A DNA stretch of 64,000 nt from NCBI RefSeq assembly GCF_017355855.1, contig NZ_JAFEWD010000002.1:248001-312000 (forward strand), written 5' to 3'. The notes beneath the pieces are model-generated. The model was not told the origin of the DNA. It worked only from the letters and a program-made list of their open reading frames with translations, and searched no databases. Of this stretch, positions 35,947 to 58,537 are shown in pieces. The stretch is from Pedobacter sp. SYSU D00535. Lineage in GTDB: Bacteria > Bacteroidota > Bacteroidia > Sphingobacteriales > Sphingobacteriaceae. The position numbers and the translations under genes are program-made. How positions within the stretch are numbered: position 1 is the stretch's first letter; every line of letters begins with the position of its first letter.

Positions 35947-36038
35947 TTTCACACCGCAGATCTGGGTGCCAAGACGCGTTTCCACGCTCCCAGATGGTTC
36001 TTTACATCCACTTTACCTTTAGAATTGTATCTTTGGGG

Positions 36039-36392: not shown

Positions 36393-36539
36393 TTGCGTAT
36401 CATTATTACCTCGTCGTGCAGCTAAAAATTAAGATTGTAAAAATCGCCTGCCGTACGAGATTCTTTTCGCATAGATATATTTCATCTTAAACACTAGTGC
36501 TAATAAGGCGCTCTTATTTTATAGTTACTGAAAAAATAA

Positions 36540-38816: not shown

Positions 38817-38838
38817 TGTTGTAACATGCCTTTAGCTG

Positions 38839-38860
38839 AGCGGCCCTTTTTACGGCCGCT
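38839..38860. terminator. Bidirectional hairpin between convergent genes
   Basis: A 7-bp GC-rich stem (agcggcc 38839-38845 with ggccgct 38854-38860), loop ctttttac, lies between the antiporter and the 61-residue gene. Confidence 0.7.
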
Positions 38861-38867
38861 CTTGTTA

Positions 38868-39053
38868 TTATTTCTCGCCTACCTTGTATGGGTTTCCTTC
38901 CTTGTCAAAGTTAAATACGCCACTTACAAGAACCTCGTCCTCACAAACGGGGCATTCTACTACGAGATTAATTATAGATACGTTAGGTCGGTTGGTTAAG
39001 GCTTTACCGGATATATGTATAACACCTCCGTGTTCAGGGCAAATTACATTCAT
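38868..39053 (-). CDS. Small putative metal-binding protein, 61 residues
   Basis: Unnamed small cytoplasmic protein. It has two Cys-containing knuckles: CPEHGG at residues 5-10 and CPVCEDE at about 34-40. Together with His8 these could bind one zinc ion (inference). The rest is compact with beta-type patterning (SIINLVVECPV, VLVSGVFNFD). It has a plausible upstream region, converges on the antiporter, and lies downstream of the degenerate tRNA. The Cys pattern and length support a real gene. Confidence 0.65.
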   Translation of the reverse strand: MNVICPEHGGVIHISGKALTNRPNVSIINLVVECPVCEDEVLVSGVFNFDKEGNPYKVGEK

Positions 39054-39172
39054 GATTTTAAATATTGAGTGTTAATAATTTAGTTCGATCATTACTTGAG
39101 GGAACTGCAACATCGGGCTCGGGAGTTTGGGATCCTTAATTTGCTTTTTGTTTTCATATGTAGAACTTTAGG

Positions 39173-39243
39173 ACTCCGGAAACGGATTCGAACCGTTGTA
39201 AAAGGTTTTGCGGACCTCCGCCTAGCCACTCAGCCATCCGGGC
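39173..39243 (-). tRNA. tRNA-Cys-like gene (GCA), degenerate
   Basis: On the minus strand the sequence folds as a tRNA: D arm GGCTGAGTGGCTAGGC, anticodon stem GAGGT/ACCTT with loop CCGCAAA (anticodon GCA), and T arm AACGG-TTCGAAT-CCGTT. Discriminator U73, a tRNA-Cys identity base, is followed by CC. Two defects stand out: position 33 is C where U is nearly universal, and acceptor pairs 1-72 (G-G) and 2-71 (C-A) are mismatched. I see no promoter of its own, and it starts 50 bases past the YeiH stop. It may be a decaying copy or a divergent functional tRNA. Confidence 0.7.
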
Positions 39244-39293
39244 TTATTTTAATTATCAGTTATCCTTTATCTTTCATTTTTTCAGCTGGTCGA

Positions 39294-40553
39294 TCACCCA
39301 AATAGTACAAATGCGATGACAAGCGTAACTACTATGTTGAAAGCCTGGGCGATGACAAATGCTAAAAAGGGCTTTTTGCTGTTCTTGTTAAATAAGTCTG
39401 CAAAGCGGGTTTCCAGACCGATGCTTGTGAAGGCCAATGCAAACCATAAACCCTGTAAGCTTTTCAAACTGTCTTTCACTTGAGAAGTAGTTTCGGTGGA
39501 GAGCACAAAAGAGAACAGTAGAGAAGCCCCAATGAAGCCCAGCACAAATTTCGGGAAGCGCTCCCATATTACTGCCAGCGTTGGTTTCGTCTCTTTATCT
39601 TTTACTAGCGGATTTTGCGTATATGTCCAGTAAATGGAAATAGCGAAAGCGGCGATCCCCAAGAGCACATTCTGAGAGAACTTGACGATCGTACTGATCT
39701 TCAGCGCTGTTTCTCCAACCAGCGTACCCGATGCAACTACAGCTCCCGTTGTGTCGATGCTGCCTCCCAGCCAGGCACCTGTTACTTCCTGGGGGAAATT
39801 GAAATAATGGGCAAGGTAAGGCATAAAGATCATCATCGGGATGGCGGTGATTAATACCATCGAGATGACATATGATAATTTTTTTGAATCGCCTTTTATG
39901 GCTCCTGAAGTAGCAATGGCAGCAGAAACGCCGCAGATGGATACGGCACTGGAGATCATCATCGTTAGATCATCGTCTACTTTCAATTTCCGACACAGCC
40001 AGAATGCGAAGTACCAGACGGAGAGGACCACCACCAGGGCTTGAATGAGACCTAGCGAGCCAGCCTTGAGAATATCAGAAAAGATAACGCTAGTGCCCAG
40101 TAGCACTAAGCCAGTCTTTACATAGAGCTCGGTGGAAAGCGCAGATCGGAACCAATCCGGAAGCTTAAAAAGGTTGCTGACGATGAGTCCGAGCGAAAGA
40201 CTAAAAATGACCGCTTCGAGGTTCAGGTTTTTTACTTGTTTATTTCCTGCTATTATTAGCGCGAGCAATGTGATGAAAAATACGGTTGGAAATACTACCA
40301 ACAGATGTTTAAGTGGCTTCCCGGCAAGTAAGGCTCCAAGGAGTGCGATGCCGAGTACCAGTATAAACTGAGCGCCAACGGCCAACAGGTTTTCGACGTG
40401 AAAAACTTTGTCCGATAGGTCGGTTACAGAACTCCAACCAAAAGAAGGGACTGGAATAATTATTCCAAATATAGCAAGCAGGATGATCAGGCCGCTTAGA
40501 ATTACAACAATCCAGTCCTCATGTAGGGTAAATGGGGTATTATTTGTTGACAT
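39294..40553 (-). CDS. YeiH family putative sulfate exporter
   Basis: Integral membrane protein, 419 residues, about ten to eleven helices, of the YeiH/UPF0324 family annotated as putative sulfate exporter. Matching blocks include LLVGTSVIFS-type ...VLLGTSVIFSDILKAG, SAVSICGVSAAIATSGAIKGD, and AWLGGSIDTTGAVVASG. The substrate has little direct proof in the family; some members have been tied to sulfite or sulfate release during taurine or cysteate breakdown. It is the last gene of the run from susC, 33 bases after the FAD oxidoreductase, and the context with a sulfite dehydrogenase strengthens the sulfur-anion assignment. The degenerate tRNA follows. Confidence 0.88.
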   Translation of the reverse strand: MSTNNTPFTLHEDWIVVILSGLIILLAIFGIIIPVPSFGWSSVTDLSDKVFHVENLLAVGAQFILVLGIALLGALLAGKPLKHLLVVFPTVFFITLLALIIAGNKQVKNLNLEAVIFSLSLGLIVSNLFKLPDWFRSALSTELYVKTGLVLLGTSVIFSDILKAGSLGLIQALVVVLSVWYFAFWLCRKLKVDDDLTMMISSAVSICGVSAAIATSGAIKGDSKKLSYVISMVLITAIPMMIFMPYLAHYFNFPQEVTGAWLGGSIDTTGAVVASGTLVGETALKISTIVKFSQNVLLGIAAFAISIYWTYTQNPLVKDKETKPTLAVIWERFPKFVLGFIGASLLFSFVLSTETTSQVKDSLKSLQGLWFALAFTSIGLETRFADLFNKNSKKPFLAFVIAQAFNIVVTLVIAFVLFG

Positions 40554-40586
40554 ATGTGTTGCGTGTGATTTAATTGGTCTTTTTAA

Positions 40587-42035
40587 TTAAATAAGTGGCT
40601 TGGCTTTCAGATTAAATACGTCTTTTAGTGCCCGTTTTGCAGCGAAGTAGCCACACATGCCGTGCACCCCTCCTCCTGGGGGGGTAGAGGAAGAACAGAT
40701 ATACAAGCCTTTGGCAGAAGTTCGATAGGGAGAAAGGCTAATGACAGGCCGGGTGAAAAGTTGGCCGATGTCAATAATACCTCCGTTGATATCACCGCCG
40801 ATATAATTCGGATTATAGTCTTCCATCTTAGCCGGGCTAAAGCTGTGTTTGGCCAGAATCCGATCCTTGAATCCCGGCGCAAAGCGTTCTATCTGGTTTT
40901 CGATGATCGAAGTCATATCTACCTTCGATCCATTCGGCACGTGACAATAGGCCCAGGCGGTATGCTTGCCTTCCGGCGCGCGACTGGGATCAAAAATGCT
41001 TTGCTGAGCAAGCAACACGAAAGGTTTTTGCGGTGTTGCTCCGATTGATGCAGTATGCTCTCCGGCGGCGATTTCTTCAAGCGTGTTTCCGATATGGACG
41101 GTACCCGCTTTTCGGGCAGCTTCTGCTGTAAAGGGAATAGCATCATCCAAGGCCCAGTCTACTTTGAACACGCCCATTCCATAGCGATACTTCTTAAGCT
41201 GCCATTTGTACAAACTCGAAAACTTGTGGCCAGCGATCTGTAGTAATTGTTTCGGCGTAACATCGAATAACACAGCATGGGCAGACGGAAGCTGCTGCAA
41301 CGATTTTACATAATAGTTCGTTTCGATCTTCCCGCCAAGGGACAAGAAGTAGGAGGCAAGCGCGTTGGCAATGGACTGTGAACCTCCTTTGGGAATTGGC
41401 CAGCCCCCCAAATGCCCAGCGGCCATCAACACCACACCTATCGCCGAGGTTGCTAAATTTGACAAAGGTTGGATAGAGTGAGCCGCCATGCCGGCCCATA
41501 ATCCTTTGGCTTCTTTTGTACTGAAACGTTTTGCCACCATCAATGCAGAAGGCATTGCTTTCAGTCCGAATAAAGCCATGTCGATCGGGTGAGAAGGAAT
41601 GCTCAGAGGTGGGCCTAGTACTGATTTATCGATGCATGGCCACGACTTAACCACCGGCTCCATCAGCCTCAGATACGCTTGTTTATCTGTTCCTAACAGA
41701 GAAGCTGTTTCTTCAAGGGATTTCGTCAGTATAGCCGCGGTGCCATCGTCAAAAGGATGAGCTGCGGCAACTTCGGGGTAAATGAACTCCAACCCATGTT
41801 GTTGCAGGGGTAAAGTTTTAAAAAATGGCGACGCAGCTGCCATTGGATGAATAGCGGAGCACACATCGTGGACAAAGCCCGGCAGCGTAAGTTCCTTCGA
41901 TCGTAGTCCACCGCCAATAACGTCTTTTGCTTCTACCAAAAGAACTGAAAGTCCTGCCTGCTGCATGGTAATGGCAGCCGCCAAACCATTTGGTCCTGAA
42001 CCAACTACTATAGCGTCAAAATCTCTTTTTTCCAA
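40587..42035 (-). CDS. FAD-dependent oxidoreductase, phytoene-desaturase-like
   Basis: Flavoprotein of the phytoene desaturase/PYROXD2-like group (COG1233 type), 482 residues. The dinucleotide fold is at the N-terminus (VVGSGPNGLAAA, glycines 12, 14 and 17), followed by the GGGLRS loop, and the C-terminal FAD contact is GLYICSSSTPPGGGVHGMCG. There is no signal peptide, so it is cytoplasmic. Carotenoid genes are absent, so a desaturase role in pigment synthesis is unlikely; it could oxidise or reduce the compound imported by the SusCD pair. It is 8 bases from soxC and 33 from yeiH, clearly inside the operon. Confidence 0.88.
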   Translation of the reverse strand: MEKRDFDAIVVGSGPNGLAAAITMQQAGLSVLLVEAKDVIGGGLRSKELTLPGFVHDVCSAIHPMAAASPFFKTLPLQQHGLEFIYPEVAAAHPFDDGTAAILTKSLEETASLLGTDKQAYLRLMEPVVKSWPCIDKSVLGPPLSIPSHPIDMALFGLKAMPSALMVAKRFSTKEAKGLWAGMAAHSIQPLSNLATSAIGVVLMAAGHLGGWPIPKGGSQSIANALASYFLSLGGKIETNYYVKSLQQLPSAHAVLFDVTPKQLLQIAGHKFSSLYKWQLKKYRYGMGVFKVDWALDDAIPFTAEAARKAGTVHIGNTLEEIAAGEHTASIGATPQKPFVLLAQQSIFDPSRAPEGKHTAWAYCHVPNGSKVDMTSIIENQIERFAPGFKDRILAKHSFSPAKMEDYNPNYIGGDINGGIIDIGQLFTRPVISLSPYRTSAKGLYICSSSTPPGGGVHGMCGYFAAKRALKDVFNLKAKPLI

Positions 42036-42043
42036 TGCTGTTT

Positions 42044-43309
42044 TTATGCTTTGCCCTCGGGCCTAAATAATACTGTTCCATCTCGTTTAATCCGCCAGGC
42101 GGTAATGGGATTGAGGTGATAGCCGCCCATATCCCGACCCCGGGCCTCCATTAATTGCTTCATGGTAGGTTGGATATATCCAGTTTCGTCAATTGCCCGA
42201 CTTAGTATTTCTGTCTCATCACCTCTCCAATTCCAGAGGTATCTGAAGTAGGTATGTGCTTTGTCCATCACCGGTCCCTGCAATTTAGCCGAATTCCATG
42301 TTTTTCCGGCATCGGTGCTTACTTCCACTTTAACTATTTTTCCTCGTCCGGTCCATGCGATCCCCCTGATCTCCACCCAGCCCTGTTGCAGAATAACAGG
42401 ATATGCAGGATAGGTGATAATCGAACGTGCGTCCATATCGAAACTGAATTGTCTGATCTTTCCTCCCTTTATTCCCTCCGTATACTTTGAAGTTTCTTCC
42501 CGCGTCATGTAGGGTTGATCAGATACCTCTATCCTGCGGATCCATTTAACGGAAGTATTACCTTCCCAGCCGGGAAGAAAGAGGCGGGCCGGGTATCCCT
42601 GCTGCGGCCTGATCGCCTCTCCGTTTTGTGCGTATACGATCATACCGTCTTGCAGGCCTTTCTGCAGAGGAATACTTCTTGTCATTACCGCTGCATCTGA
42701 TCCTTCGGCTAAAAACCAGCTTGCTTTTGATTTTATACCCACTTCGCGAAACAGGGTAGAAAGCATGACGCCCGTCCATTCACTCTGACTAGTCAAACCG
42801 GCAATCTCCTGCGGCATCATTTCTTCTTTTCCTGTCCGGAAGTTTCCTGAGCATTCCAAAAAACAGATACGGGAAAAAGCCGGGAAGCGCTTAAGGTCGG
42901 CAAGGGTGAATATCATAGGTTTTTCTACCATTCCATGAATCAGCAGTTCGTACTTCTCAGGATCAATAGTGGGAACACCGCCATGGTGACGTTCATAGTG
43001 GAGGTCAGCTGGAGTGATAGTACCATAGAGGTCCTGCAGCGGTGTACGGGAAGAGGTGTCGGATGTTTTTTTCAAAGGACGTTCAAAGGGAGAGCGCGTG
43101 CCAAGGTCGAATGGTGGCGGTCCCTGAACTTTAGTAGGGTCGGCTGGGATATAAAGAGATTCAGGGATAGCCGTTTGAATCTCACCAAAGGAAGACTTCA
43201 CCAGCGCAACTGCTGCTGTAGCCGCTCCTCCCAATAATAATTTCCGACGGCTTATTTTCGCCAATGCGTGATTGGTTTCGTTTTTTGTTTCTTCTGACTT
43301 GATACCCAT
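42044..43309 (-). CDS. SoxC-like sulfite dehydrogenase (molybdopterin)
   Basis: Molybdopterin oxidoreductase of the sulfite oxidase/SoxC class, 421 residues. It oxidises sulfite, or sulfane sulfur in the Sox system, and passes electrons to a cytochrome c. Residues 20-40 carry a Tat signal (SRRKLLLGGAA), so it folds with cofactor and is exported to the periplasm. The molybdenum-binding domain contains the ligand Cys153 in FLECSGNFR; the C-terminal part (about 270-415) is the dimerisation domain, with EVSTDAGKTW. It directly follows the cytochrome gene (8 bases), reproducing a SoxC-SoxD-type pair. There are no soxXYZAB genes here, so it is not a classical Sox cluster. Confidence 0.92.
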   Translation of the reverse strand: MGIKSEETKNETNHALAKISRRKLLLGGAATAAVALVKSSFGEIQTAIPESLYIPADPTKVQGPPPFDLGTRSPFERPLKKTSDTSSRTPLQDLYGTITPADLHYERHHGGVPTIDPEKYELLIHGMVEKPMIFTLADLKRFPAFSRICFLECSGNFRTGKEEMMPQEIAGLTSQSEWTGVMLSTLFREVGIKSKASWFLAEGSDAAVMTRSIPLQKGLQDGMIVYAQNGEAIRPQQGYPARLFLPGWEGNTSVKWIRRIEVSDQPYMTREETSKYTEGIKGGKIRQFSFDMDARSIITYPAYPVILQQGWVEIRGIAWTGRGKIVKVEVSTDAGKTWNSAKLQGPVMDKAHTYFRYLWNWRGDETEILSRAIDETGYIQPTMKQLMEARGRDMGGYHLNPITAWRIKRDGTVLFRPEGKA

Positions 43310-43317
43310 GGTGATTT

Positions 43318-43935
43318 TTACTTTACTTCCCTTCCGCCACGACGGTCGTCATTTACAAATAATCCCTTCGCTGGCATTTTAATTTTAGCAAGGTTCCTGT
43401 TCGTTACTATCTCATCTCGTTCAACGATGCGGTTCTCGTACAGTAGGTAAGCTGTCAGACTGTACACTTCATCCGGGCGAAGAGAACCTGGTGCATTGAA
43501 CGGCATCGCACGATTGATGTAGTCAAATAGCGTCGTAGCGTAAGGCCAGTAATTGCCGATTGCTTTCGGTTTTTTTCTACCCTCATAATCCGGTCTGGAC
43601 AGTCTTGCTACCAGTTTAGCCTCAGGTCCTTCTACGCCAGTCCTTCCATGGCAAGTGGCACATTTAGCCAGATAGATCTGCTTACCCAGAGCTACCGTTC
43701 CTGATCCTTCGGGAAGCCCTTCACCATCTGGTCTAACGTCTATATCCTGACGTGCTATTTCATCTTCCTGAGCTTCCCTGCCGATTTGAAAGCTCTCCGG
43801 CCAATCCCTGGTGTCGAGGGTATTGACCGGATTACTTTCGCTTTCTATAGGAGTAGGCCCTTGTAAGTTCTCGCTGCGATTGCATCCTGCAAGGGCTAAA
43901 AACAAGCAGAGAGTTAGATATCTTTTAAGTTTCAA
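43318..43935 (-). CDS. Cytochrome c lipoprotein (SoxD-like partner)
   Basis: Mono-heme cytochrome c, about 205 residues. One heme site, CATCH, lies in the middle, and an axial Met occurs in INRAMPFNAPGSL. The block IGNYWPYATTLFDY matches cytochromes paired with SoxC. From the TTG at 43935, four bases after the previous stop, the product begins with a perfect lipoprotein signal ending LALAGC. The only ATG options, 43980 and 44001, lie inside the upstream gene and would add 15-22 residues ahead of the signal. I choose TTG, with some doubt. It likely takes electrons from the sulfite dehydrogenase and is anchored in a membrane facing the periplasm. Confidence 0.88.
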   Translation of the reverse strand: MKLKRYLTLCLFLALAGCNRSENLQGPTPIESESNPVNTLDTRDWPESFQIGREAQEDEIARQDIDVRPDGEGLPEGSGTVALGKQIYLAKCATCHGRTGVEGPEAKLVARLSRPDYEGRKKPKAIGNYWPYATTLFDYINRAMPFNAPGSLRPDEVYSLTAYLLYENRIVERDEIVTNRNLAKIKMPAKGLFVNDDRRGGREVK

Positions 43936-43939
43936 TTTC

Positions 43940-45583
43940 TTAGTATTTACCTGCCACCAGCGTACTTTGAGACAAAGCATACTTCCGCTCAACCTTATCA
44001 AGCACTACATAGATGGAGTCGTTGTTTTCGTTGGTGCCTGTTAAAATAATCCGATTTCCATCGTCCGTTTGGTATTTCAATACCATGCGTTTACGCTTCT
44101 CATTTTTAGGTGCTTTAGCAAATTCGCGGTTGCGACGGGTAGAAGCAGCTCTTTCATCTATAAAGTTTACCTCATTGCCGATATGCTCCCAGGCCTCTTT
44201 GCTGATCCATTCTTTCTGTTCATTCCCCTGTTTGACCTCTTTATTCAGGCCCTCGATGAATCCGGAAGCAGCTCCATTGTCGGTACTGCCAGCCACCCGG
44301 TTACGACGATCCGGGACCTTCTTGTACTTATCCTGCAGGTAAAGCACCTTGTCTACCGTATCCGCGTAGTAATGGAAAGTTCTTCTTCCGCCGGCCGTCC
44401 CGGTAATTTCAAAGTTTCTGTTGATATCCCGTTGAGGGTCGCCACCTCCGTTTGAGAGATCGATAGGAACGGCCTTGTTTACTTTAAAAGTTAGGGTTGT
44501 CCAATTTTCAAACGTAGCTTCCTGCCATCTTACCGAGTCGAGGGGATTGTAAGGGATTACCTGATCGTTGAGACGGAACTCTGTTACCGTGTAATTCCCC
44601 CTTAAGCTTTTCACCCCTGCAGTTGAGGGCTGTTTGTACGGATCGTATTTGAAGTTGACGTATTGCAGATAGAAGAGAAGTACAAGAAATACATACAAGA
44701 CTGCGGTTTTAAGGCCGGCCCTGGTCCATTTTATCCACGATGCCGAAAGGTCCGGATAGTAGAAGTTGAAGCGGGCCGGCTTCTGTTGCACGAGTAGTTG
44801 ATATAGAGGCTTCAGGTAAGGAACAAGCAGGAAGCCTGATAAAACTACGAAGTAAGAGCTGTAACCATGCACTCCGCCATCGTAGGCAAAGTTTACGTAA
44901 ACGATGTCGCCTAAAGCAGCAAACAACAGGGCGGCTCCCCATAAGGTGGTCTTGCGGAAAAATAGCAGTGCGCCCGCAAGGACTTCCACCACCCCAGCAA
45001 ATACCTGATACCAAGGCACAATCCCAATTGATAGCCAATAAATCTTTTGAGCGGTGAAATCGCCGAAATCCGTGTTAAGTAAGGCATAAGAAGGATAAGG
45101 CATTTGTACTGGGAGGAGCTTGGTAAATCCAAACCCGATAATTCCAATACCTGCCCGGTAGCGTACAATCACTCGCAGCCAATAGTACAGGGTATTGTAT
45201 TCCTTCGGTTCGGGCTTTCTCCTTGAATCGACGAGGGTCCAGATTAATCCCGCGACGACGGAAATGAGCAGGGTAATGATCCAATTTGCGTAACCCAATA
45301 AAGTGCTGCCGAAAACGGAATTTCCTAACAAGTTGATTCCGGAACCGAAACGAGCGATATCATAGAGATCCCGATAATGCAAATTTGTCCAATCAATGTT
45401 GGCTACGTGCTTGTACCATTCAACGCTATTCGGAAATGAAAGCGCGATAAAGAATATGAAGGCTATGCGAAAGGCAACGCGATGCCAGGGTTTCCAGTAG
45501 GTTAAGGTCTGTTTTTCCTCCTGGTGTGCAATATAGGGAGCTTCGCTGAGCTCAAGATTGTCGTTAGAAGTTTCTTTTGCCAT
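43940..45583 (-). CDS. DoxX-like membrane protein with C-terminal domain (copy 2)
   Basis: A 547-residue membrane protein: about seven helices in residues 35-310, then a soluble domain. The helical part contains a DoxX-like core (GIVPWYQVFAGVVEVLAGALL, VNFAYDGG). The tail (GNYTVTEFRLND, DSVRWQEATFENWTTL, RIILTGTNENNDSIYVVLDK) looks like a small beta barrel. It is a paralogue of the next upstream gene, which shares every segment. This copy alone has an extra charged insert of about 75 residues (about 410-490). DoxD/DoxA of Acidianus is a thiosulfate:quinone oxidoreductase, so an electron-transfer role with sulfite oxidation is possible, but that is a hypothesis. It ends 4 bases before the cytochrome start. 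Confidence 0.75.
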   Translation of the reverse strand: MAKETSNDNLELSEAPYIAHQEEKQTLTYWKPWHRVAFRIAFIFFIALSFPNSVEWYKHVANIDWTNLHYRDLYDIARFGSGINLLGNSVFGSTLLGYANWIITLLISVVAGLIWTLVDSRRKPEPKEYNTLYYWLRVIVRYRAGIGIIGFGFTKLLPVQMPYPSYALLNTDFGDFTAQKIYWLSIGIVPWYQVFAGVVEVLAGALLFFRKTTLWGAALLFAALGDIVYVNFAYDGGVHGYSSYFVVLSGFLLVPYLKPLYQLLVQQKPARFNFYYPDLSASWIKWTRAGLKTAVLYVFLVLLFYLQYVNFKYDPYKQPSTAGVKSLRGNYTVTEFRLNDQVIPYNPLDSVRWQEATFENWTTLTFKVNKAVPIDLSNGGGDPQRDINRNFEITGTAGGRRTFHYYADTVDKVLYLQDKYKKVPDRRNRVAGSTDNGAASGFIEGLNKEVKQGNEQKEWISKEAWEHIGNEVNFIDERAASTRRNREFAKAPKNEKRKRMVLKYQTDDGNRIILTGTNENNDSIYVVLDKVERKYALSQSTLVAGKY

Positions 45584-45601
45584 CGTTCAACGTATTGATG
45601 A

Positions 45602-47014
45602 TTATAACTTGATGCCTTTCCTGCGTCCCGATTTAGCAGCTTCTTCGAGCAGGTATTTCTTGTTGATCTTATCCAGAATTACATGGATTGAATTATTCTG
45701 CTGATCCGTACCAGTCAAAATGATCCGCGAATTATTTGGCCTGCTGAAATTTAAAGTGAGTGTCTCGGTGGCGTAATTTTTATTTCGGTTGTGCAGTACC
45801 AATTGCTGCTTCGCTTCATCAATTTGATAGCCGTAATAGTGGCGGCCGGCAGCGCCCGCCAACTCGTAATTTCTTAACTTTTCATCCTTGTGAATCTCTT
45901 CTGTGAGGCTGTGTTCCAATTGGACAGGACGGTTAGAGCGGATGCTCAGGGTGGCCCATTTCTCGAATACCACATCTTTCCAGCGAATTGTGTCGGTAGC
46001 CGAGTAGGGTAGTACCTTATTGTTGATCCGGAACTCAGTTACATTATAGATGCCCGCTGCATCTGCTAAGCCCGCTGTTTTAGGATACTGGTAAGGGTCG
46101 GTATGATAACCTGCGTACGATTTGTATCCGTAAAGGAAGACAAAGAAAAAAATGAAGGCTGATTTTAGCAGTAACCTCCCTTGCTTCAGATTTCCCTTAA
46201 ATACCGGTTTGAATTTGTCGGGCAGTACGGTCTGTTCCACGCTAAGGAAGTAAAGTCGTTTCAGGTCGTAAAAGCCTAATAACAGTGCAAAGCTTATTAG
46301 ATAAAGACTGTAAACGTGTTCTCCTCCTTCGTAAGCAAGATTAGACATAAACACGTTTCCGTGAAAAAGCAGTACAATGAAAGCTCCGAAGGTGGCAGTA
46401 CCTCTGTAAAGCAGTAGTAAACCTGCAAAAATCTCGATCAGGCCCAGGAAAGACTCATAGTTCGGAACGATTCCTAAACTCATCGAGAAGACTTTCCAGT
46501 GAGTCAGGTCACCATAATTGGTGTTCAGATTACTGATAGAAGGTAGCGGCGACTGCAATGGATAGAACTTCAGGAAGCCATAACCGATTACGCCGAGAGC
46601 CAGTCGGTAACGCGCTATCACTCTTAAATAGTAGTAAAGGGTATTGTAGTCGCGACTTTTTTTATCCAAAAAGCTCCAGATTCCGGCTCCGATTGCTGCA
46701 ATTGCAGCTACAATAAGCCAGTTCAGGTATGATTGCCCCTCGATGAATTGCGGGTAGTAACGGGTGAGATTGAAAATGTCGCCGTAATGGAGCTCGAGCC
46801 AATTGATGGAAAATAGAGTCTTGTAGAATTTCCAGTCGAGCGGCACTGCCTGAATGAAAAAATAGAGAAAAGCAAACTTGAAGACCAGCTTCTCTACTGC
46901 GTTCCCGTCGGGCATAATTGGGCGGTAAGGCCGCGATGCTTCAGTTGTTTCGTTTACTTCAGCCGACTTTGTTTCTTCAAAAACTTCAGTAGTAAATGAT
47001 GTTAACTTACTCAT
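45602..47014 (-). CDS. DoxX-like membrane protein with C-terminal domain (copy 1)
   Basis: A 470-residue paralogue of the downstream gene. Shared blocks include LHYGDIFNLTRY, YNTLYYYLRVIARYRLALGVIGYGF, SMSLGIVPNYESFLGLIEIFAGLLLLYRG, and the tail YNVTEFRINNKVLPYS and SRIILTGTDQQNNSIHVILDK. Helices fill about residues 45-300; the last about 165 residues are outside the membrane core. The charged insert of the other copy is lacking. The pair probably forms a heterodimer in the cytoplasmic membrane (inference). The start lies 30 bases after susD and the gap to the next gene is 18 bases, so it is in the operon. Confidence 0.75.
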   Translation of the reverse strand: MSKLTSFTTEVFEETKSAEVNETTEASRPYRPIMPDGNAVEKLVFKFAFLYFFIQAVPLDWKFYKTLFSINWLELHYGDIFNLTRYYPQFIEGQSYLNWLIVAAIAAIGAGIWSFLDKKSRDYNTLYYYLRVIARYRLALGVIGYGFLKFYPLQSPLPSISNLNTNYGDLTHWKVFSMSLGIVPNYESFLGLIEIFAGLLLLYRGTATFGAFIVLLFHGNVFMSNLAYEGGEHVYSLYLISFALLLGFYDLKRLYFLSVEQTVLPDKFKPVFKGNLKQGRLLLKSAFIFFFVFLYGYKSYAGYHTDPYQYPKTAGLADAAGIYNVTEFRINNKVLPYSATDTIRWKDVVFEKWATLSIRSNRPVQLEHSLTEEIHKDEKLRNYELAGAAGRHYYGYQIDEAKQQLVLHNRNKNYATETLTLNFSRPNNSRIILTGTDQQNNSIHVILDKINKKYLLEEAAKSGRRKGIKL

Positions 47015-47044
47015 GATTGTTTTATTAGGTTAAAAATGATTGAT

Positions 47045-48430
47045 TTACTTATATCCCAGTGTCTGCTCCAGTGCTCTGTCTGCCAGCAGTTGCTCCGCTG
47101 GGATAGGCATCACAAGTCTGAAATCTTCTGTGATGTTCAGCACCTGTTTTGCTCTTCCGGTCCTTACCAGATCAAACCACCGGTGTGGCTCGTAGGCAAA
47201 TTCCAGTCTTCTTTCATTTTCGATTGCCGATAACACCTGCTCTTTTGTTACTGCGCTGGTAGGGGCTAAACCGGCTCTGTCGCGAACAGCATTCAGATCT
47301 GCAATGGCTTCAGCTAGCTTGGCTGGATTTGCATCAAACTGCTGCGCTTTTGCTTCGGCGCGGATCAGGTAAAGCTCGGCGGTACGTATGATGTAAGACG
47401 GATCAGACGGAGTGGGGCGGTAGTAAAGCGTACCATACCAGCGGTTCTGGTTGTCCTTTGCTACCAGCGTGCTTCTGCCGCCGCTAGTAACGGGATCAGT
47501 TACCAGGGCTACAAAAGCGTTGTTTGGTGCCCATTGCCTGGTGCCGCCCAGATTCTGCGGAAGCCATTGGTTTTTGTGAGTGTTTTGTTCGGTTGTGCCA
47601 TTGTAGAATAGTTCAAAAACTGATTCCTGAGTACCTCTTGCGTCGTTCGCAAAGAACGAATTGAAGGGTTTTAATAAGCGATAGTTCCCGTTATCTGCCA
47701 CAATCTTGTCGGCGTATTCTTCTGCTTTTGTCCAGTCATTCCGGTACAGATAGTAGCGGGCTTTCAATGCAAAGGCCGTTTTTCTGTTTGCTCTATACCT
47801 GTCGGATCCACCAACTGCAATATTGCCTGGAAGAGGAAGGAGTGTCTCTGCCTGATCCAAATCGGCCAGTACCTGATTATAAACCTGTTCTATCGTACTG
47901 CGGGTAATTCCGATATTATCAGCAGGGGTTTTAGTCGGTTTGGTGACGATGGGAACGCCTCCCCAGGTGCGAGCCAGATCAAAATAAGCCAGTGCACGTA
48001 CGAAGTAGGCTTCTCCCAAGATCTGCTTTTTTGCAGTTTCAGTTAGCAGAGGGTCGACCACCTCAGGTACCTTTGCTATCACATTGTTAGCCCTGTTGAT
48101 GGTGCGGTAGATCGCCACCCAAGCCGTGCTTATAGTGGCATTTTCTGGGTTTACTTTATGATTGATAAACTCCTGGATTTGGGATTGAGAACCCGTCCAC
48201 TGGATATTGTCGCCATTTAGATATCCTATCGACTGGAAGCTCATTCCGTAATAGCCGGCATCGGCCAGCCCGTTGTACACACCATGCAAGGCCGACTCAG
48301 CCGAACCTTTGTCGTAAATAGTTACTTCATCAGATACGGAGGCACGAGGTTCTACTTCCAGAAACTTTTCGCAGGAGCTGAAAGAAATAACAAAAGCTAT
48401 AGCAAGAATATATTTTATCGGATTTGTCAT
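47045..48430 (-). CDS. SusD/RagB family nutrient-binding lipoprotein
   Basis: Surface lipoprotein of the SusD/RagB family, 461 residues, the lid of a SusC transporter. The signal MTNPIKYILAIAFVISFSSC ends in lipobox FSSC. SusD features include FLEVEPRAS after the Cys, helical TPR-like segments (GEAYFVRALAYFDLARTWG), and the C-terminal block ENERRLEFAYEPHRWFDLVRTGR. I prefer the start at 48430, which gives the complete signal; ATG at 48454 would add 8 residues. It follows susC (29 bases). The captured nutrient is unknown; the genes downstream point to a sulfur-containing molecule rather than a glycan, since no glycosidase or sulfatase is nearby. Confidence 0.92.
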   Translation of the reverse strand: MTNPIKYILAIAFVISFSSCEKFLEVEPRASVSDEVTIYDKGSAESALHGVYNGLADAGYYGMSFQSIGYLNGDNIQWTGSQSQIQEFINHKVNPENATISTAWVAIYRTINRANNVIAKVPEVVDPLLTETAKKQILGEAYFVRALAYFDLARTWGGVPIVTKPTKTPADNIGITRSTIEQVYNQVLADLDQAETLLPLPGNIAVGGSDRYRANRKTAFALKARYYLYRNDWTKAEEYADKIVADNGNYRLLKPFNSFFANDARGTQESVFELFYNGTTEQNTHKNQWLPQNLGGTRQWAPNNAFVALVTDPVTSGGRSTLVAKDNQNRWYGTLYYRPTPSDPSYIIRTAELYLIRAEAKAQQFDANPAKLAEAIADLNAVRDRAGLAPTSAVTKEQVLSAIENERRLEFAYEPHRWFDLVRTGRAKQVLNITEDFRLVMPIPAEQLLADRALEQTLGYK

Positions 48431-48459
48431 TGTAGTTCTGTTTAAAAGCATCATAAAAC

Positions 48460-51400
48460 TTATAAGGTTAAATCCACTCCAAATTGAATGGTGCGAGGCT
48501 GAGGCGGAGTACCTAAGTCGATACCTTGCTCGTTTTGGGCGCTACTGGACGCCGACTCAGGATCTAAGCCGGAATACCTGGTGAAGGTGAGGAGGTTGCT
48601 GCCCGTTACAAATAGCCTTAATCCTTCCACCCGGGCTTTTTGAGTTAGATTTTTAGGAAGCGTGTAGCCAATCGAGGCAGAGCGGATCCGGAGAAAGGAG
48701 CCATCTTCCAACCAGCGACTTCCGCCGTCCCGGTAGTTATTTACGTTCACGCCGTCTGATTTTGGTACGTCTGTAACATCTCCGGGTTTTTGCCATCTGT
48801 CGAGATTACTTGCAAAGATTACCCGTGCTGCATCTCTCGCTCCGCCGCCTTCGCCAAAGAATTTATTATGATTGTAAATCTTGTTTCCGTACTGGAACGC
48901 CGCGAACACATTTAAATCAAATTCTTTAAAGGTGAAGTTGTTGGTCAGGCCGCCGAAAAACTTAGGCCAAATGCTTCCATGCAACTGCCGGTCGTCCACA
49001 GTAATTTTTCCGTCCTTGTTCACATCCTCGTAAACCGCGTTCCCAGTTTGAGGATCAATGTAAAGTTGCTTGTACACCCAGAAGGAATAAAGCGGGTAGC
49101 CTTCTTTGTGCATAATCAGATCGCGACTTCCATACCGAAGCGGATTCTGCAGTTTTTCAACTTTGTTAATATTACGGGAGACATTAAAACTGGTGCTCCA
49201 TGTGAAATTTTTCTTGCTGATGTTTCTGCTATTCAAGCTGAATTCGAAACCTCTATTACTAATCTCAGCCACATTGCTCCAGTAATTGCTGAATCCGGTG
49301 GTTCCGGGAAGCGTCAGCTGCAGCAAACCGTCGGTAGTGTACTTTCGATAGAGGTTAAATTCGAAGTTGAGGCGGTCGTTAAGTATTCCAAGGTCGAGAC
49401 CAAGGTTAAGCTGCGTAGTTTTTTCCCATTTCAAGTCAGGGTTTGACAGCTGTTGGGGAGAAATACCAGCGCTTCCCTGATAAGGAGAACTTCCACTCCA
49501 CAGTCCCAGGGCAGCGAAATACCCGATGCCGTTCTGGTTACCTACAGTTCCGTAACTCGTTCTTAATTTTAGTTCGCTGATAAAGTCGACGTCTTGCAGG
49601 AAGTTTTCCTGTTTAATACGCCAGGCAGCACCTACAGAAGGAAAATATCCCCAGCGATTACTTGCACCAAAGCGGCTCGAGCCATCAGCTCTCAGGCTCG
49701 CATCGATCAGGTATTTACCGTCGAAATTATAATCAACTTTTCCAAAAAATGAAGCCAGTGTACTCTTATTCCAGGTTTCTGAACTGGTGCTGCTGGAGGC
49801 GGATGAAATGACTTTAAAGGAGTTATTCGCAAATCCTCGCCCTTCGGCTGATGTTCTGGTCAGCTGATCAAGCTGAAGCGTGTTACCCAGCAGGAAATTG
49901 AGGGTATGCTTGTCGTTGAAGCTTTTGCGATAGGAGAGCGTCTGCTCATTAAGAAGTGTAGTAAACTGTCCGATGGCCGAAGTTGCCAATCCTCCCTGGG
50001 CTCCTAAAAGGAGAAAGGTGTTCCAGTATTCTGACTCATCGTAATTGTTGTAGTCGACACCAACGCTTGAGCGCAGTTTCAGGCCGGGAAGAAGTACGAA
50101 ATCGGCATTCAGATTGCCGATGTAGCGTAAGCTAACGGAGTTTACGTCGTAGTTTTCCAGCAAGAGCGTTACGTTGTCAAATCCAGCCCGGCCAACGAGT
50201 ACTCCTTGCTCGTTATAGGGCGAAAGGTAAGTAGGCGTGTGGAGCGCCGCTTGTAATAATCCCCCTTGCGGACCATCACCTGCGCGGGCCTGATTTCTGA
50301 GGGTTCTGCTGAAGGTGTTGCTTATGCTAAGTTGAACGTTGTTGTTTATTCTTTGATCAAGGTTCACCTTAAAGCTCGCTCTTGAAAAATCGATCGGACT
50401 TAAGATGGATTCCTGATTGGTGTAGCCGCCACCGATATAATAGCGGGTGTTCGCCGATCCGCCAGTAAGGGCGAGATCGTAATTCTGTAATTGTGCTGTG
50501 CGGAAGACCTCACCCAGCCGGTCGTAGGTTTGCTGTTCCTCTGGCAAACCCCGGCCTCCTTCAGAAACAGGACGGAAAGGGCGGGTCGCAAAAGATCCTC
50601 CTGTATTGACATGCCACTCATTTACCAACTGCGCGTGCTCGGGCCCAGAAGCCAGGTCCCAAAGTTTCTCCGCCCGGGCAAATCCCTGAGTGGTATTGAA
50701 GGAGATCTTTGGCTTTTGGTTAAAATTACCTCGCTTTGTGGTGATGAGAATGACACCGTTAGCACCACGCGAACCGTACAGCGCAGTTGCTGAGGCATCT
50801 TTTAATACCTCGATACTTGCAATATCTGCCGGGTTAATATCGGCTATCGGTGATGAAGCTTTACCGCCGGTGCTAATCGTTTGAAGGCTGTTGTTGTTGA
50901 TGAAGACACCATCAATAACATAAAGCGGATCGGTGTCAGCATTGATAGAAGTGGCCCCGCGTACACGGATATTTGCAGTTTCTCCCGGTACTCCGGTGTT
51001 GCTTGAGATCTGGACGCCGGTTATTTTTCCTTGCAATTGCGCGTCGAAACCTCCTGTCGGTATGTTTTTAGTTTCTGCAGGATTGACTTTCGCGATGGAG
51101 CCAATAAGATCTCGACGGGTTTGGATTCCATATCCTACAACCACTATTTCTTTCAGCTCGTTGGAGGCTTCTTTTAAAAATATCTCAATGGGACTACCTT
51201 CAGCAACCACTTCCTTTTTTTCATAGCCGATATAACTCAAGACTAATGTGTAAGGAAATTTCTGACCAGTGATAAAATTGAATTCACCATTGTTGTTGGT
51301 AGATGAAGCATGGGTAGTTCCTTTTATCTGAACTGTAACTCCGATAAGAGGTTCCTGAGTTTTGGCGTCGAGAACGCGCCCACGCAGGGTTGAATTGATA

Positions 51401-51516
51401 ATAGGGCGATTTTCTTGAGAAAACGCGCAGGAAGAACCGATTGTTAAATGGGCTAAAATGACGAGAGCATAAGAAAACACAATAACCGAAAAGCCGTGAT
51501 GGCGGTTATTTTTCAT
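48460..51516 (-). CDS. SusC/RagA family TonB-linked outer-membrane transporter
   Basis: SusC-type TonB-dependent transporter, 1018 residues. Order: signal peptide (residues 1-33, ending AFSQ), carboxypeptidase-regulatory-like domain (about 40-120, LRGRVLDAKTQEPLIGV), the SusC signature KEIVVVGYGIQTRRDLIGS, plug (about 130-260, with NIRVRGATSINADTDPLYVIDG and ATALYGSRGANGVILITTKRG), and barrel ending TIQFGVDLTL. There is no STN domain, so it is not FecIR-controlled, in contrast to the SusC at 55010. It heads the eight-gene sulfur-related run. Its leader of about 200 bases contains an antisense RNA candidate and a palindrome near the start of transcription. Confidence 0.95.
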   Translation of the reverse strand: MKNNRHHGFSVIVFSYALVILAHLTIGSSCAFSQENRPIINSTLRGRVLDAKTQEPLIGVTVQIKGTTHASSTNNNGEFNFITGQKFPYTLVLSYIGYEKKEVVAEGSPIEIFLKEASNELKEIVVVGYGIQTRRDLIGSIAKVNPAETKNIPTGGFDAQLQGKITGVQISSNTGVPGETANIRVRGATSINADTDPLYVIDGVFINNNSLQTISTGGKASSPIADINPADIASIEVLKDASATALYGSRGANGVILITTKRGNFNQKPKISFNTTQGFARAEKLWDLASGPEHAQLVNEWHVNTGGSFATRPFRPVSEGGRGLPEEQQTYDRLGEVFRTAQLQNYDLALTGGSANTRYYIGGGYTNQESILSPIDFSRASFKVNLDQRINNNVQLSISNTFSRTLRNQARAGDGPQGGLLQAALHTPTYLSPYNEQGVLVGRAGFDNVTLLLENYDVNSVSLRYIGNLNADFVLLPGLKLRSSVGVDYNNYDESEYWNTFLLLGAQGGLATSAIGQFTTLLNEQTLSYRKSFNDKHTLNFLLGNTLQLDQLTRTSAEGRGFANNSFKVISSASSSTSSETWNKSTLASFFGKVDYNFDGKYLIDASLRADGSSRFGASNRWGYFPSVGAAWRIKQENFLQDVDFISELKLRTSYGTVGNQNGIGYFAALGLWSGSSPYQGSAGISPQQLSNPDLKWEKTTQLNLGLDLGILNDRLNFEFNLYRKYTTDGLLQLTLPGTTGFSNYWSNVAEISNRGFEFSLNSRNISKKNFTWSTSFNVSRNINKVEKLQNPLRYGSRDLIMHKEGYPLYSFWVYKQLYIDPQTGNAVYEDVNKDGKITVDDRQLHGSIWPKFFGGLTNNFTFKEFDLNVFAAFQYGNKIYNHNKFFGEGGGARDAARVIFASNLDRWQKPGDVTDVPKSDGVNVNNYRDGGSRWLEDGSFLRIRSASIGYTLPKNLTQKARVEGLRLFVTGSNLLTFTRYSGLDPESASSSAQNEQGIDLGTPPQPRTIQFGVDLTL

Positions 51517-51644
51517 AACTTTGGACTGTTTTTGTTAATGATTCAATTCATTGATGAAAGCGGGATGAAAATCAGTGGTGATTGGCGTTACTGGCTGATT
51601 TCATCAACACAAGCCGGCGGGACTATCCTGTCGGCCTTTTTTTT
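51516..51644 (+). ncRNA. Candidate antisense RNA over the susC leader (with promoter and terminator)
   Basis: On the plus strand, opposite to susC, a perfect -7 element TAACTTTG (51516-51523) overlaps the susC start codon by one base. Transcription would begin near 51530. A 9-bp stem (ttgatgaaa 51551-51559 with tttcatcaa 51599-51607) encloses a smaller hairpin region. A terminator follows: 10-bp stem 51613-51622 with 51626-51635 (two G-U pairs), then T8 at 51637-51644. The RNA of about 115 bases would be fully complementary to the susC leader next to the ribosome entry site. Size, position and orientation resemble DonS-type RNAs of Bacteroides. No -33 element is evident. The small open frames here are not convincing. 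Confidence 0.65.
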
Positions 51645-51703
51645 AATTGCAGCAGCACATGTTCGTATCGGTTTTATTCACAAAAATATGTTAAGATGAT
51701 AAC

Positions 51704-51731
51704 GGACCTGCAGGTCCATGCTGCAAATATA
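51704..51731 (-). promoter_or_regulatory. susC operon promoter with palindrome at the start site
   Basis: On the minus strand TATATTTG (complement of 51724-51731) is an exact -7 element. Seven bases downstream begins the perfect 14-bp palindrome GGACCTGCAGGTCC (51704-51717), which would cover the +1 site and could be an operator. This gives susC a leader of about 200 bases. No -33 element is clear. The rest of the 307-base gap to the deacetylase (51732-51823) is AT-rich with no other feature seen. Confidence 0.6.
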
Positions 51732-51823
51732 AAAGTAAAATATAATTATCCTATAGAGTTAGTAGATTAATTGGAAATTTTTGCCCTTTTTCTGGCGTAT
51801 GATCATAAAGGCTTCAAATCGCA

Positions 51824-52636
51824 CTAGCGCACTACAATTTCCTTCTGAATTTTGTTGATGTATTCTGCCACATCCACCATAGTTGCTATCCATAGGTCTG
51901 CCTCCCGTTGCTTCAGGTAGTTCAACAACTTGTTGTGTTCCGCTTCACTGATATTCAAACTATGTTCGCCTCCAACGCCGTGAAAGAGTAATACCAGCAG
52001 TGAACCTGATTGCTCAGCTTGCTTTACAGCCTCAATCAATTGCTCCCCCGTATGATTATTTACAAAAAAGGCATTGATGTTCTCAAGGTTGACTTGTCGG
52101 GGTGATTGAAGTCCTGACGCTACGCCGCGAGCACCAGCAAATTCAGATTTTAATAAATTATAGTAGAGCGAACCGCCTATTTTTAAATCGCCACAAGGGT
52201 AAGCAAAAGTTCGTTTTGTTTTTCCATCGATGGCCTTCAAAAGCGTATTTGCGATCCGTATTTCATTAACGGCTCTGCTAAGTGTAAACTTGCTTAGATC
52301 TGTTTCTGCAGTCACGAAGCTCCTTCCGCTCAGATTTCCGTCGCAAGGGTGAGTTAGGGTATGATTACCTAATTCATGTCCTTTTTTAGCAGCTTTTCGC
52401 CAATCCTCTAGCCGATTCGAAACTACAGGAGAGACGCCAATCAGATAAAAGGTTCCTTTGAGCTTCCGGGAGTCAAGAGCTGGAATTACTTTGTCAAGGT
52501 GAACATTTAACGCATCGTCATAGGTAAGGACTACAGCACTCCGTTTTTTATTCCAACTTCTTTCCTGGATTTGAGCAGTCGCTGATTGGAAAGTAAAGGT
52601 AGCGATAACGCTAAAAAATAATAGTTCGTACTTCAT
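51824..52636 (-). CDS. Polysaccharide deacetylase family protein (NodB homology)
   Basis: Exported carbohydrate esterase 4-type deacetylase, 270 residues. The signal peptide ends near SATAQ (about residue 21). The NodB motifs are visible: TYDDALN (the catalytic base and metal Asp), the metal-binding pair in HELGNHTLTHP, and FAYPCGD; a late LFHGVG gives the final His. Such enzymes remove N-acetyl groups from chitin-like or peptidoglycan sugars, or act on other amides. The first in-frame ATG (52651) would put five residues before the hydrophobic core; ATG at 52636 (MKYELLFF) fits better. It follows the ECF sigma gene on the same strand but is 200 bases away. Confidence 0.88.
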   Translation of the reverse strand: MKYELLFFSVIATFTFQSATAQIQERSWNKKRSAVVLTYDDALNVHLDKVIPALDSRKLKGTFYLIGVSPVVSNRLEDWRKAAKKGHELGNHTLTHPCDGNLSGRSFVTAETDLSKFTLSRAVNEIRIANTLLKAIDGKTKRTFAYPCGDLKIGGSLYYNLLKSEFAGARGVASGLQSPRQVNLENINAFFVNNHTGEQLIEAVKQAEQSGSLLVLLFHGVGGEHSLNISEAEHNKLLNYLKQREADLWIATMVDVAEYINKIQKEIVVR

Positions 52637-52835
52637 CTTACAATGGTGCATCTCGGAGTGAAGAACTTGAGTCCGGAGAATCAGACTCGCAGTTCTTAAT
52701 CCAAAATACGGTTTTTTCAGGAAGTGCCGATTCTTGCGGTTGAATTTCGGCGCCTTTAAAAAGGGAAGTTGGTAGATGCAGAGTCGAGAAAGGAGAGAAT
52801 TATTATTACCAAAATAAACGATGAGCGCACTTCCC

Positions 52836-53378
52836 TTATAAGCTTTTGCTGTGATTATGAATAAATTCTTTGATATATAACATCGAACAGCTAAGATATT
52901 CCTTCACTGTATGTTTCGATATGTTAAGTACTTGAGCGGTCTCCTCATAGGTTTTGCCCTCCATTTTGCAGAGGTTAAACACCTTCTGTTTCTGAGGGGA
53001 TAATTGATGGATTGCTCTCTGTAGTAGCCCTAATTGCGATTGGTAGAGCTCAGAGCTTTCAGACTCCGCTGTTTGTTCATCATTATAAAGGGTGTCGAAT
53101 GCCAGGCATTCTTTCAATCTTTCCCGCTTAAAGCTGACTGATTTGTTAAAGCTGGTGACGAACAGCCAGCCGCTAACAGATTGTTGAGGGTCCAATGAAC
53201 CGCGTTTTTCCCAGAGACAGTAGAAAACGTCTTGTAAGATGTCGTCTGCTGCTTCCTCGTCCTTTAAAATTTTCAAAATATTGCGGTGGACGGCAATATG
53301 ATATTTCCAGTACAGAAGATCAAAAGCTTCAGCGTCATCTCTTTTTAGTTTTAATACTAATTCTTTGTCCGTGCTCAT
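52836..53378 (-). CDS. ECF RNA polymerase sigma factor (FecI-like)
   Basis: Extracytoplasmic-function sigma factor, 180 residues. Region 2 (DLLYWKYHIAVHRNIL, EEAADDILQDVFYCLWEKR) and region 4 (QLSPQKQKVFNLCKMEGKTYEETAQVLNISKHTVKEYL would be the helix-turn-helix; Leu-Asn-Ile-Ser turn) are complete. Regions 1 and 3 are absent, as expected. It is divergent from the FecR-type anti-sigma gene at 53654 instead of in the usual same-strand pair. It probably drives the STN-bearing susC operon downstream of fecR when that transporter is loaded. Confidence 0.93.
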   Translation of the reverse strand: MSTDKELVLKLKRDDAEAFDLLYWKYHIAVHRNILKILKDEEAADDILQDVFYCLWEKRGSLDPQQSVSGWLFVTSFNKSVSFKRERLKECLAFDTLYNDEQTAESESSELYQSQLGLLQRAIHQLSPQKQKVFNLCKMEGKTYEETAQVLNISKHTVKEYLSCSMLYIKEFIHNHSKSL

Positions 53379-53653
53379 AGTTCAAATTTTGGAAGGATGA
53401 TTTGTAGACAGGTGCTTTTAATCCTGTTTTCTTTCTAAACTTCATAGAATCGACAGGATTTCTATTGAGTTTTTGAAAATACTGTTTTGGAAGGGTGTTG
53501 TTAGGTGTAAATTTTTATATTTTTTCTGATTTTTGCAAGAAAAACTTAAAAAAAATGTTAAAAGTTATTTTCATATAATATTTTATTAAAAAAAATCTAG
53601 CGTATCCCCCCGTTTTGTTGATCTTTTCGTATTTACAGTAAAATATCTCTTCG

Positions 53654-54829: not shown

Positions 54830-54910
54830 AACAACAAACCCACTAATCATTAATTTAATAAGAACTTATGAAACAGCAACAGGAAGTTTAACACACCAGT
54901 AGGGATAAGC

Positions 54911-58519: not shown

Positions 58520-58537
58520 TACTTAAAACTGAGAAAC

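Follow-up and report, generated by a model that had tools for sequence, protein, structure and literature searches.

We analyzed a 64,000-nucleotide stretch of the genome of Pedobacter sp. SYSU D00535 (contig NZ_JAFEWD010000002.1), hereafter called the window. On its minus strand, at 39294-51516, lie eight open reading frames (ORFs) in the order SusC, SusD, X1, X2, cytochrome c, SoxC, flavin adenine dinucleotide (FAD) enzyme and YeiH-like carrier, where X1 and X2 denote two membrane proteins. The gaps between these genes are 5, 30, 18, 8, 8 and 33 bases, and the ORFs of X2 and the cytochrome overlap, the start codon of the latter being uncertain. The assignments are as follows, with family scores and their cut-offs.

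48460..51516, minus strand: SusC/RagA TonB-dependent outer-membrane transporter, 1018 residues (TIGR04056, 836 bits; cut-off 368)
47045..48454, minus strand: SusD-like surface lipoprotein, 469 residues (PF14322, 101; cut-off 27; PF07980 also above its cut-off)
45602..47014, minus strand: X1, a membrane helical bundle with a C-terminal lipocalin-like barrel, 470 residues (AlphaFold2 mean pLDDT 89.3; no Pfam match)
43940..45583, minus strand: X2, an X1 paralog whose C-terminal domain is longer, 547 residues (AlphaFold2 mean pLDDT 82.9; sub-threshold MauE)
43318..44001, minus strand: SoxD-like cytochrome c lipoprotein with one heme motif (PF13442, 38.3; cut-off 27; 2xts_B, E 1.7e-32)
42044..43309, minus strand: SoxC-like molybdenum enzyme, a putative sulfite dehydrogenase, with a twin-arginine (Tat) leader, 421 residues (TIGR04555, 472.7 bits; cut-off 420; 2xts_A, E 4.1e-89)
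40587..42035, minus strand: FAD-dependent oxidoreductase, distantly CrtO-like, 482 residues (PF01593, 44.6; cut-off 19.8)
39294..40553, minus strand: YeiH-like transporter, a probable sulfite exporter, 419 residues (PF03601, 174.5; cut-off 24.5)

SusC and SusD are adjacent, and both exceed their family cut-offs. A preliminary description of the window, made from its letters alone, had proposed an eight-gene, single-strand operon with SusC, SusD, a cytochrome c lipoprotein, a SoxC-like protein and an FAD enzyme; the ORF coordinates and family scores bear this out, including the name "SoxC-like", which the TIGR04555 score supports. Its range of gaps, 4-33 bases, was nearly right, the measured range being 5-33 plus the one overlap. 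The genome itself (4.89 Mb in 20 contigs, 99.89% complete) has a single PF00174 match, the operon SoxC, and a single PF03601 match, the operon YeiH-like protein; a MoaA-type gene is present away from the operon.

This eight-gene operon is real and conserved. A scan of contigs with X2 yielded 132 confirmed loci, the best 80 of which form an X2-selected set of Bacteroidota loci. X1 is found at all 80, SusD at 76, SusC at 75, SoxC and the cytochrome at 63 each, the FAD enzyme at 52 and YeiH at 41. All eight genes occur together at 23 of the 80, SusC-SusD-X1-X2-FAD-YeiH without SoxC at nine, and SusC-SusD-X1-X2 only at four. To remove the bias of selecting by X2, a SoxC alignment was run against 400 sampled genomes of the order, and 59 of them matched at E 1e-80. 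At the 58 resulting SoxC-selected loci (the window excluded), the cytochrome is present at 57, X2 at 52, X1 at 51, SusD at 50, SusC at 49, YeiH at 46 and the FAD enzyme at 41, with all eight together at 30. X2 is absent from the fetched stretch at six of the 58, at one of which (L187; handles of this form denote loci) it lies just outside. The X2- and SoxC-selected sets overlap in part: 17 of the 58 have SoxC DNA identical to that of X2-selected loci. In the same 400 genomes, with thresholds of E 1e-80 for SoxC and at least 700 bits for X2 (67 genomes), SoxC and X2 co-occur in 55, X2 stands alone in 12, SoxC alone in four, and neither is present in 329, these counts being uncorrected for relatedness. 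Class-wide, only one of 295 sampled genomes, that of the window, passes the SoxC cut-off. The neighborhood counts and the genome co-occurrence thus place the arrangement far beyond chance, and the search for co-occurrence in Bacteroidota that the preliminary description had proposed finds the gene set, and its order, conserved in both X2- and SoxC-selected loci.

The SoxC-cytochrome pair and its partners

The best solved relative of the operon's SoxC is a SoxCD structure, 2xts, which we take to be SoxCD of Paracoccus pantotrophus. The neighboring cytochrome, with its CxxCH motif, is a homolog of the SoxD chain of that structure, and the pair is therefore SoxCD-like. As read from the sequences, a twin-arginine leader is present in SoxC, and a single CxxCH and a lipobox in the cytochrome; both proteins would thus be expected to work outside the cytoplasm. 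The earlier statement that no classical sox genes are present was half right. With a model that matches in 34 of 296 genomes across the phylum, SoxZ was found neither in this genome nor in the 14 controls of that search; SoxD, on the other hand, has a homolog here in the cytochrome.

The substrate pocket was compared among 45 operon SoxC proteins, 10 orphan SoxC proteins from plasmids, five SoxC proteins of Sox clusters (four beside annotated sox genes, one found by tblastn) and 24 sulfite-oxidase-type relatives (two of them annotated proteins of plasmids, the other 22 genome matches that carry no annotation; 23 readable, SO_L101, with a failed ORF, being left as a gap). The SoxC alignment contained 44 of the 60 listed SoxC rows, and the X1 alignment 74 of 77. 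The Cys that ligates molybdenum is kept in every readable row. Three further positions, presumably with roles in the pocket of sulfite oxidase, separate the groups: the operon proteins have Arg158 (45 of 45), Trp178 (45 of 45) and Tyr226 (43 of 45), whereas all five Sox-cluster proteins have Gly, Tyr and Phe, respectively. The Arg and Trp are both found in 23 of 23 readable sulfite-oxidase-type rows; the orphans have Trp178 in 10 of 10 and Tyr226 in eight of 10. The Arg and Trp counts thus speak for a sulfite-type pocket. In a midpoint-rooted tree of the window sequence and 22 of the 44 relative rows (SO_L101 was left out, and a long-branch warning applies), operon SoxC and a Spirosoma plasmid copy form one clade (100/100), separate from the Sox-cluster proteins (100/100). 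We read the pair as a putative periplasmic sulfite dehydrogenase that either arose from SoxCD or is its sister. Judged by sequence, it is not a member of the Sox pathway.

Comparison with known systems places the pair further. It shares with the SoxCD of the Sox pathway a homologous molybdenum subunit and a SoxD-like cytochrome encoded side by side, but differs in its residues, its clade and the lack of a SoxZ match in its genome. With the SorAB and SorT sulfite dehydrogenases it shares the sulfite-oxidase fold family and the molybdenum-ligating Cys, yet the operon SoxC scores only 124.9 and 121.2 against their respective cut-offs of 600 and 570. Orphan pairs of SoxC and cytochrome c on plasmids of Paracoccus, Methylobacterium, Methylosinus and Paraburkholderia are alike in that no soxXYZAB is annotated in the fetched stretch, and their SoxC is 46-55% identical to that of the window, against about 44% for Sox-cluster SoxC. 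Unlike the operon, they have no SusCD, X1 or X2 annotated alongside, and Arg158 is mostly not kept. A plasmid operon of Spirosoma oryzicola (NZ_CP089541.1) has SusCD at its head and a cytochrome and SoxC (71% identical) at its end, but an amidohydrolase, an LLM flavin monooxygenase and an amino acid permease take the place of X1, X2, the FAD enzyme and YeiH. The closest model to this LLM monooxygenase is that of alkanesulfonate monooxygenase, at 246.6 bits and thus below the cut-off of 518.2. In Methylobacterium, the orphan pair lies at most 6 kb from two LLM monooxygenases and an aliphatic-sulfonate binding protein, encoded on the opposite strand. The Paracoccus, Paraburkholderia and Methylosinus pairs have no annotated organosulfur neighbors, except for a PhnD/SsuA-type binding protein in Methylosinus. 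The Spirosoma and Methylobacterium contexts suggest that SoxCD of the operon type sometimes travels with organosulfur genes.

X1 and X2 are about 37% identical to each other, and their AlphaFold2 models each combine a bundle of membrane helices with a lipocalin-like barrel at the C-terminus. Neither has a curated Pfam or NCBIfam match, the nearest being a sub-threshold match of X2 to MauE (17.0; cut-off 27). The barrel of X1 (residues 316-452) has structural matches of up to Z 10.0, and that of X2 reaches Z 5.8. The membrane parts match solved structures weakly: Foldseek returned nothing at E 0.001 or better for either protein, and the core of X2 aligns with NACHO/TMEM35A, which we take to be DoxX-like, at Z 5.7 and 3.0 Å over 112 residues, a score that may mean only a common arrangement. 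Thus, "DoxX-like", as both proteins had been called, has weak backing from structure, while sequence yields nothing for X1 and only the MauE match for X2. The best Foldseek matches of X2 include many chains of vitamin K carboxylase, all weak (E 0.055 or worse); vitamin K carboxylase binds quinone. The wider family includes X-pairs in genomes that lack SoxC, one of which (L276) has a metallo-beta-lactamase/rhodanese gene two genes further on; a 255-residue protein at that locus has no Pfam family.

The FAD enzyme scores 139.8 with the CrtO model, far below its cut-off of 1000, and no export signal was seen in it. It is present at 12 of the 17 X2-selected loci that lack SoxC and at four of the six SoxC loci whose fetched stretch lacks X2, and may therefore link the two halves of the system. 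For the last gene, the name YeiH holds in that PF03601 is exceeded; TIGR00698 falls short of its curated cut-off (94.2 against 232.6). The protein resembles the putative sulfate/sulfite exporters YeiH and SuyZ in being a PF03601 transporter encoded beside a sulfite-oxidizing enzyme, and differs from them in that TIGR00698 score. It had been taken for a sulfate exporter. One report proposes that YeiH exports sulfite rather than sulfate (PMC11582611), and another describes YeiH as driving sulfite resistance in Salmonella, a resistance phenotype and not a direct test of transport (PMC12880088). By analogy with these proteins, the operon's carrier more likely exports sulfite than sulfate.

The leader region

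Two kinds of leader precede the operon. An Rfam scan of 24 loci, hand-chosen from the 80, found ten S-adenosylmethionine (SAM) riboswitches, six of which precede the operon by 266 to 1,286 nt, counted on the SusC strand to the first ATG of SusC (L003, L004, L005, L057, L059 and L063). Between riboswitch and SusC lies one gene of 311-312 codons in L003 and L004, whose 312-residue product has only sub-threshold PBP matches, and an 83-residue ORF in L059. The window has the following features ahead of SusC.

51564..51605, minus strand: type A element, a candidate leader hairpin with a conserved loop around GTAACGCCAATCAC, about 70 nt before the SusC start (from pattern, relatives and fold)
51613..51636, minus strand: GC-rich hairpin just upstream of the type A hairpin (from fold; a similar CCGGC..GCCGG hairpin occurs in several relatives)
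51724..51731, minus strand: TATATTTG, which fits the -7 promoter consensus TAnnTTTG (a sequence match; we take this to be the Bacteroidota consensus)

An Rfam scan of positions 51400-52700 of the window, with E values up to 1 allowed, matched the type A hairpin to no family. The exact pattern of the hairpin occurs once in the window, at 51573-51589, in none of 100 shuffles of the window, and once in the whole genome. Across 300 genomes there are 33 sites in 28 genomes, against one site for the reversed pattern. Twenty-three of the 33 precede SusC of SusCD-X operons: that of the window and 22 others, which are 22 of 22 checked. In these others, SusC homology begins 76-187 nt downstream. Six precede SusCD-sulfatase operons (PF00884), one precedes a SusCD-rhamnosidase operon, and one (L274) is unrelated. 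The remaining two lie at Rrf2 genes, for which the best equivalog model is CymR (below cut-off), and a cysE-like gene (also below cut-off) accompanies one of them. The hairpin ahead of the six sulfatase operons (L265, L266, L267, L268, L270 and L273) may be an unnamed element of a sulfur regulon.

A CAG stem is present in the arms of 33 of 34 distinct type A contexts. The mean duplex energy of the arms is -9.4, against -6.0 (sd 0.38) when permuted; once the common CAG/CTG is removed, the values are -5.2 and -3.0 (sd 0.31). Both contrasts are inflated by close relatives. RNAalifold found no consensus pairs in a MAFFT alignment of 11 leaders, and the fold of the window leader is barely better than that of shuffled sequences, 11 of 200 of which do equally well (z -1.73). 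Sphingobacterium leaders have an identical nine-base core in reverse orientation ("type B"; L046:4188, L053:4179, L066:4182 and others), and in some of them a second copy of the core stands just after a promoter-like box. Because of this reversed core, the element can be read alike as an RNA structure or as a DNA operator, and the type A candidate may act as either. The riboswitches and the type A element, two unrelated kinds of leader, together tie the operon to sulfur supply.

A sulfur-scavenging role and its alternatives

We lean, with slightly better than even confidence, toward the view that the operon scavenges organosulfur compounds, is switched on when sulfur (SAM or cysteine) is short, and includes a periplasmic clean-up of sulfite. 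This interpretation is built on the gene content, its conservation, the SoxCD homology without SoxZ, the pocket residues and the sulfur-linked leaders, all of which were observed. The organosulfur contexts of the Spirosoma and Methylobacterium pairs and the sulfur-related neighbors of the operon at single loci (L080, L076, L017, L040 and L276, with molybdenum cofactor genes at L018) also speak for it. The nutrient brought across the outer membrane by SusCD would contain sulfur, and is probably an organosulfonate or some other conjugate with sulfur in it. X1 and X2, in the inner membrane, and the FAD enzyme would pass on or break down the imported compound, and its breakdown would release sulfite. 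The YeiH-like carrier would presumably expel the cytoplasmic surplus of this sulfite; in the periplasm, the Tat-exported SoxC-like enzyme would oxidize sulfite to sulfate and hand the electrons to the SoxD-like cytochrome c lipoprotein. Of the two roles the preliminary description had offered, TonB-dependent organosulfur uptake with sulfite detoxification is the better reading; the riboswitches in relatives and the element common to sulfatase and Rrf2 loci argue for scavenging and disfavor an energy system.

Several results weigh against this proposal. No sulfonate monooxygenase or other enzyme that would break down the substrate was identified in the operon, and the three LLM proteins of this genome lie outside the window. 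SoxC is an add-on and not part of the core, being absent from the fetched stretch of 17 of the 80 X2-selected loci, and neither SoxC nor X2 was found at E 1e-80 in two other sampled genomes of the genus. A scan of window 36000-56000 with Rfam found no SAM riboswitch (RF00162). In the pocket, the Tyr226 position of the sulfite-oxidase-type rows is Tyr in 10 of 23, Trp in eight and Phe in five, so the tyrosine is not diagnostic. Arg158 is present in just two of the 10 orphans (one of them Spirosoma), although orphans sit near sulfonate genes. The C-terminal pair Tyr397-His398 is SoxC-like, kept in 45 of 45 operon and five of five Sox-cluster proteins, and the sulfite-oxidase-type rows have no His there. 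Finally, the oxidation of sulfite during sulfur starvation looks wasteful.

The dedicated SoxD-like cytochrome c raises the possibility that sulfite or thiosulfate, imported or encountered in the periplasm, is oxidized via SoxCD as a supplementary electron donor to the respiratory chain. X1 and X2 weakly resemble the DoxX family, to which the thiosulfate:quinone oxidoreductase DoxD is related. We regard such an energy system as improbable: the leaders point to control by starvation, SoxZ was not found in this genome, and small inorganic ions pass through porins and would not need SusCD. The same pair could instead be a sulfane dehydrogenase, whose target would be either a carrier different from SoxYZ or a persulfidated substrate that X1 and X2 bind. 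The TIGR04555 score, the SoxCD structure as best solved relative and the retained Tyr397-His398 would all suit this enzyme, but Arg158 and Trp178 fit the sulfite-oxidase-type rows and not the five Sox-cluster proteins, and related SoxC proteins sit near LLM monooxygenases; we think it doubtful that the pair has this activity.

A different division of labor deserves more weight, if still unlikely to be correct as stated: X1 and X2 would form a quinone-linked membrane oxidoreductase acting on a thiol or sulfane intermediate, with SusCD-X1-X2 as the core and SoxCD-YeiH as clean-up, a scheme that overlaps with organosulfur scavenging. The presence of both X proteins at every X2-selected locus, against SoxC at 63, speaks for it, as do the X-pairs that occur without SoxC, one near a metallo-beta-lactamase/rhodanese gene, and the vitamin K carboxylase matches; the weakness of the structural matches of the membrane part speaks against it. 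Lastly, the operon could be an ordinary polysaccharide utilization locus for a sulfated glycan, whose glycan enzymes have been lost or are remote. Such loci, too, are led by a SusC-SusD pair. A polysaccharide deacetylase adjoins SusC in the window, two SoxC loci without SusCD have glycoside hydrolases upstream, sulfatase genes occur at five of the 80 relative loci (inside the operon at one), and one type A site precedes a SusCD-rhamnosidase operon. We nevertheless consider this very unlikely. Family searches find no glycan enzymes among the eight genes, as had been claimed at the outset, but redox and sulfur genes instead; the deacetylase is present at none of the 80 relative loci; and no further gene cluster reaches more than 11 of the 80, ORFs antisense to SusC aside (not every cluster was annotated).

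Among the papers listed by our literature searches, mainly openly accessible ones, none describes the operon or its leader element, and none gives an account of a SusCD system for reaching organic sulfur. A broader scheme is possible, and we put it forward tentatively, at somewhat less than even confidence: a sulfur-starvation regulon of Sphingobacteriales, in which a conserved hairpin absent from Rfam would control several SusCD operons, some with sulfatases and others, such as this one, with a new two-protein membrane system, X1/X2, which would process an organosulfur compound and supply sulfite both to a SoxCD that works independently of SoxYZ and to a sulfite exporter of the YeiH type. If this were true, SusCD would not only import glycans but also serve for sulfur acquisition. 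In soil, sulfur is mostly organic, and the use of SusCD for sulfur rather than carbon would widen the presumed range of these pairs. Further, orphan SoxCD pairs annotated as "sulfite dehydrogenase" would gain a function, a YeiH-type sulfite exporter would find its place in a pathway, and the two membrane protein families of X1 and X2 would receive names. The common leader element makes the regulon open to a transcriptomic test.

Genes around the operon

One sulfatase gene cluster, all of whose members match PF00884, accounts for the five loci mentioned above (L016, L025, L028, L030 and L080). At L080, the sole locus with a sulfatase inside the operon, FGE is encoded there too; a 259-residue protein of this locus has no Pfam family. 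At L067:7845-8771, L041:7610-8497, L056, L060, L072 and L074, SusD is separated from X1 by a gene for a Peptidase S51 (cyanophycinase-like) protein; the cluster of this gene has members at 11 of the 80 loci, and all six that were tested with Pfam match. A peptide-like substrate is therefore possible. L017:17044-20176 and L040:6410-9063 encode, after YeiH, a type 2A encapsulin (Pfam-tested in L017) and an aminotransferase-V protein that is cysteine-desulfurase-like. At L018:11587-21203, from Olivibacter sitiensis, the interval from X2 to SoxC holds molybdenum cofactor genes, molybdate-type ABC transport genes and a redoxin, and L076 has a methionine aminotransferase as neighbor. The gap between the FAD enzyme and YeiH at L002:15334-15408 holds a minus-strand match to the Flavo-1 sRNA family.

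Two candidates were rejected. The polysaccharide deacetylase at 51824-52651, given its absence from the relative loci, is not counted as an operon member, and cysteine dioxygenase was dismissed as a source of sulfite because PF05995 was not found in this genome (it matched in one of 14 controls). Elsewhere in the window, an Rfam tRNA gene lies on the minus strand at 39173-39243, just 3' of the YeiH stop codon, and a second SusCD pair occupies the plus strand at 53654-61755, with a FecR-like gene ahead of it and an M20-like amidohydrolase behind, all named from sequence.

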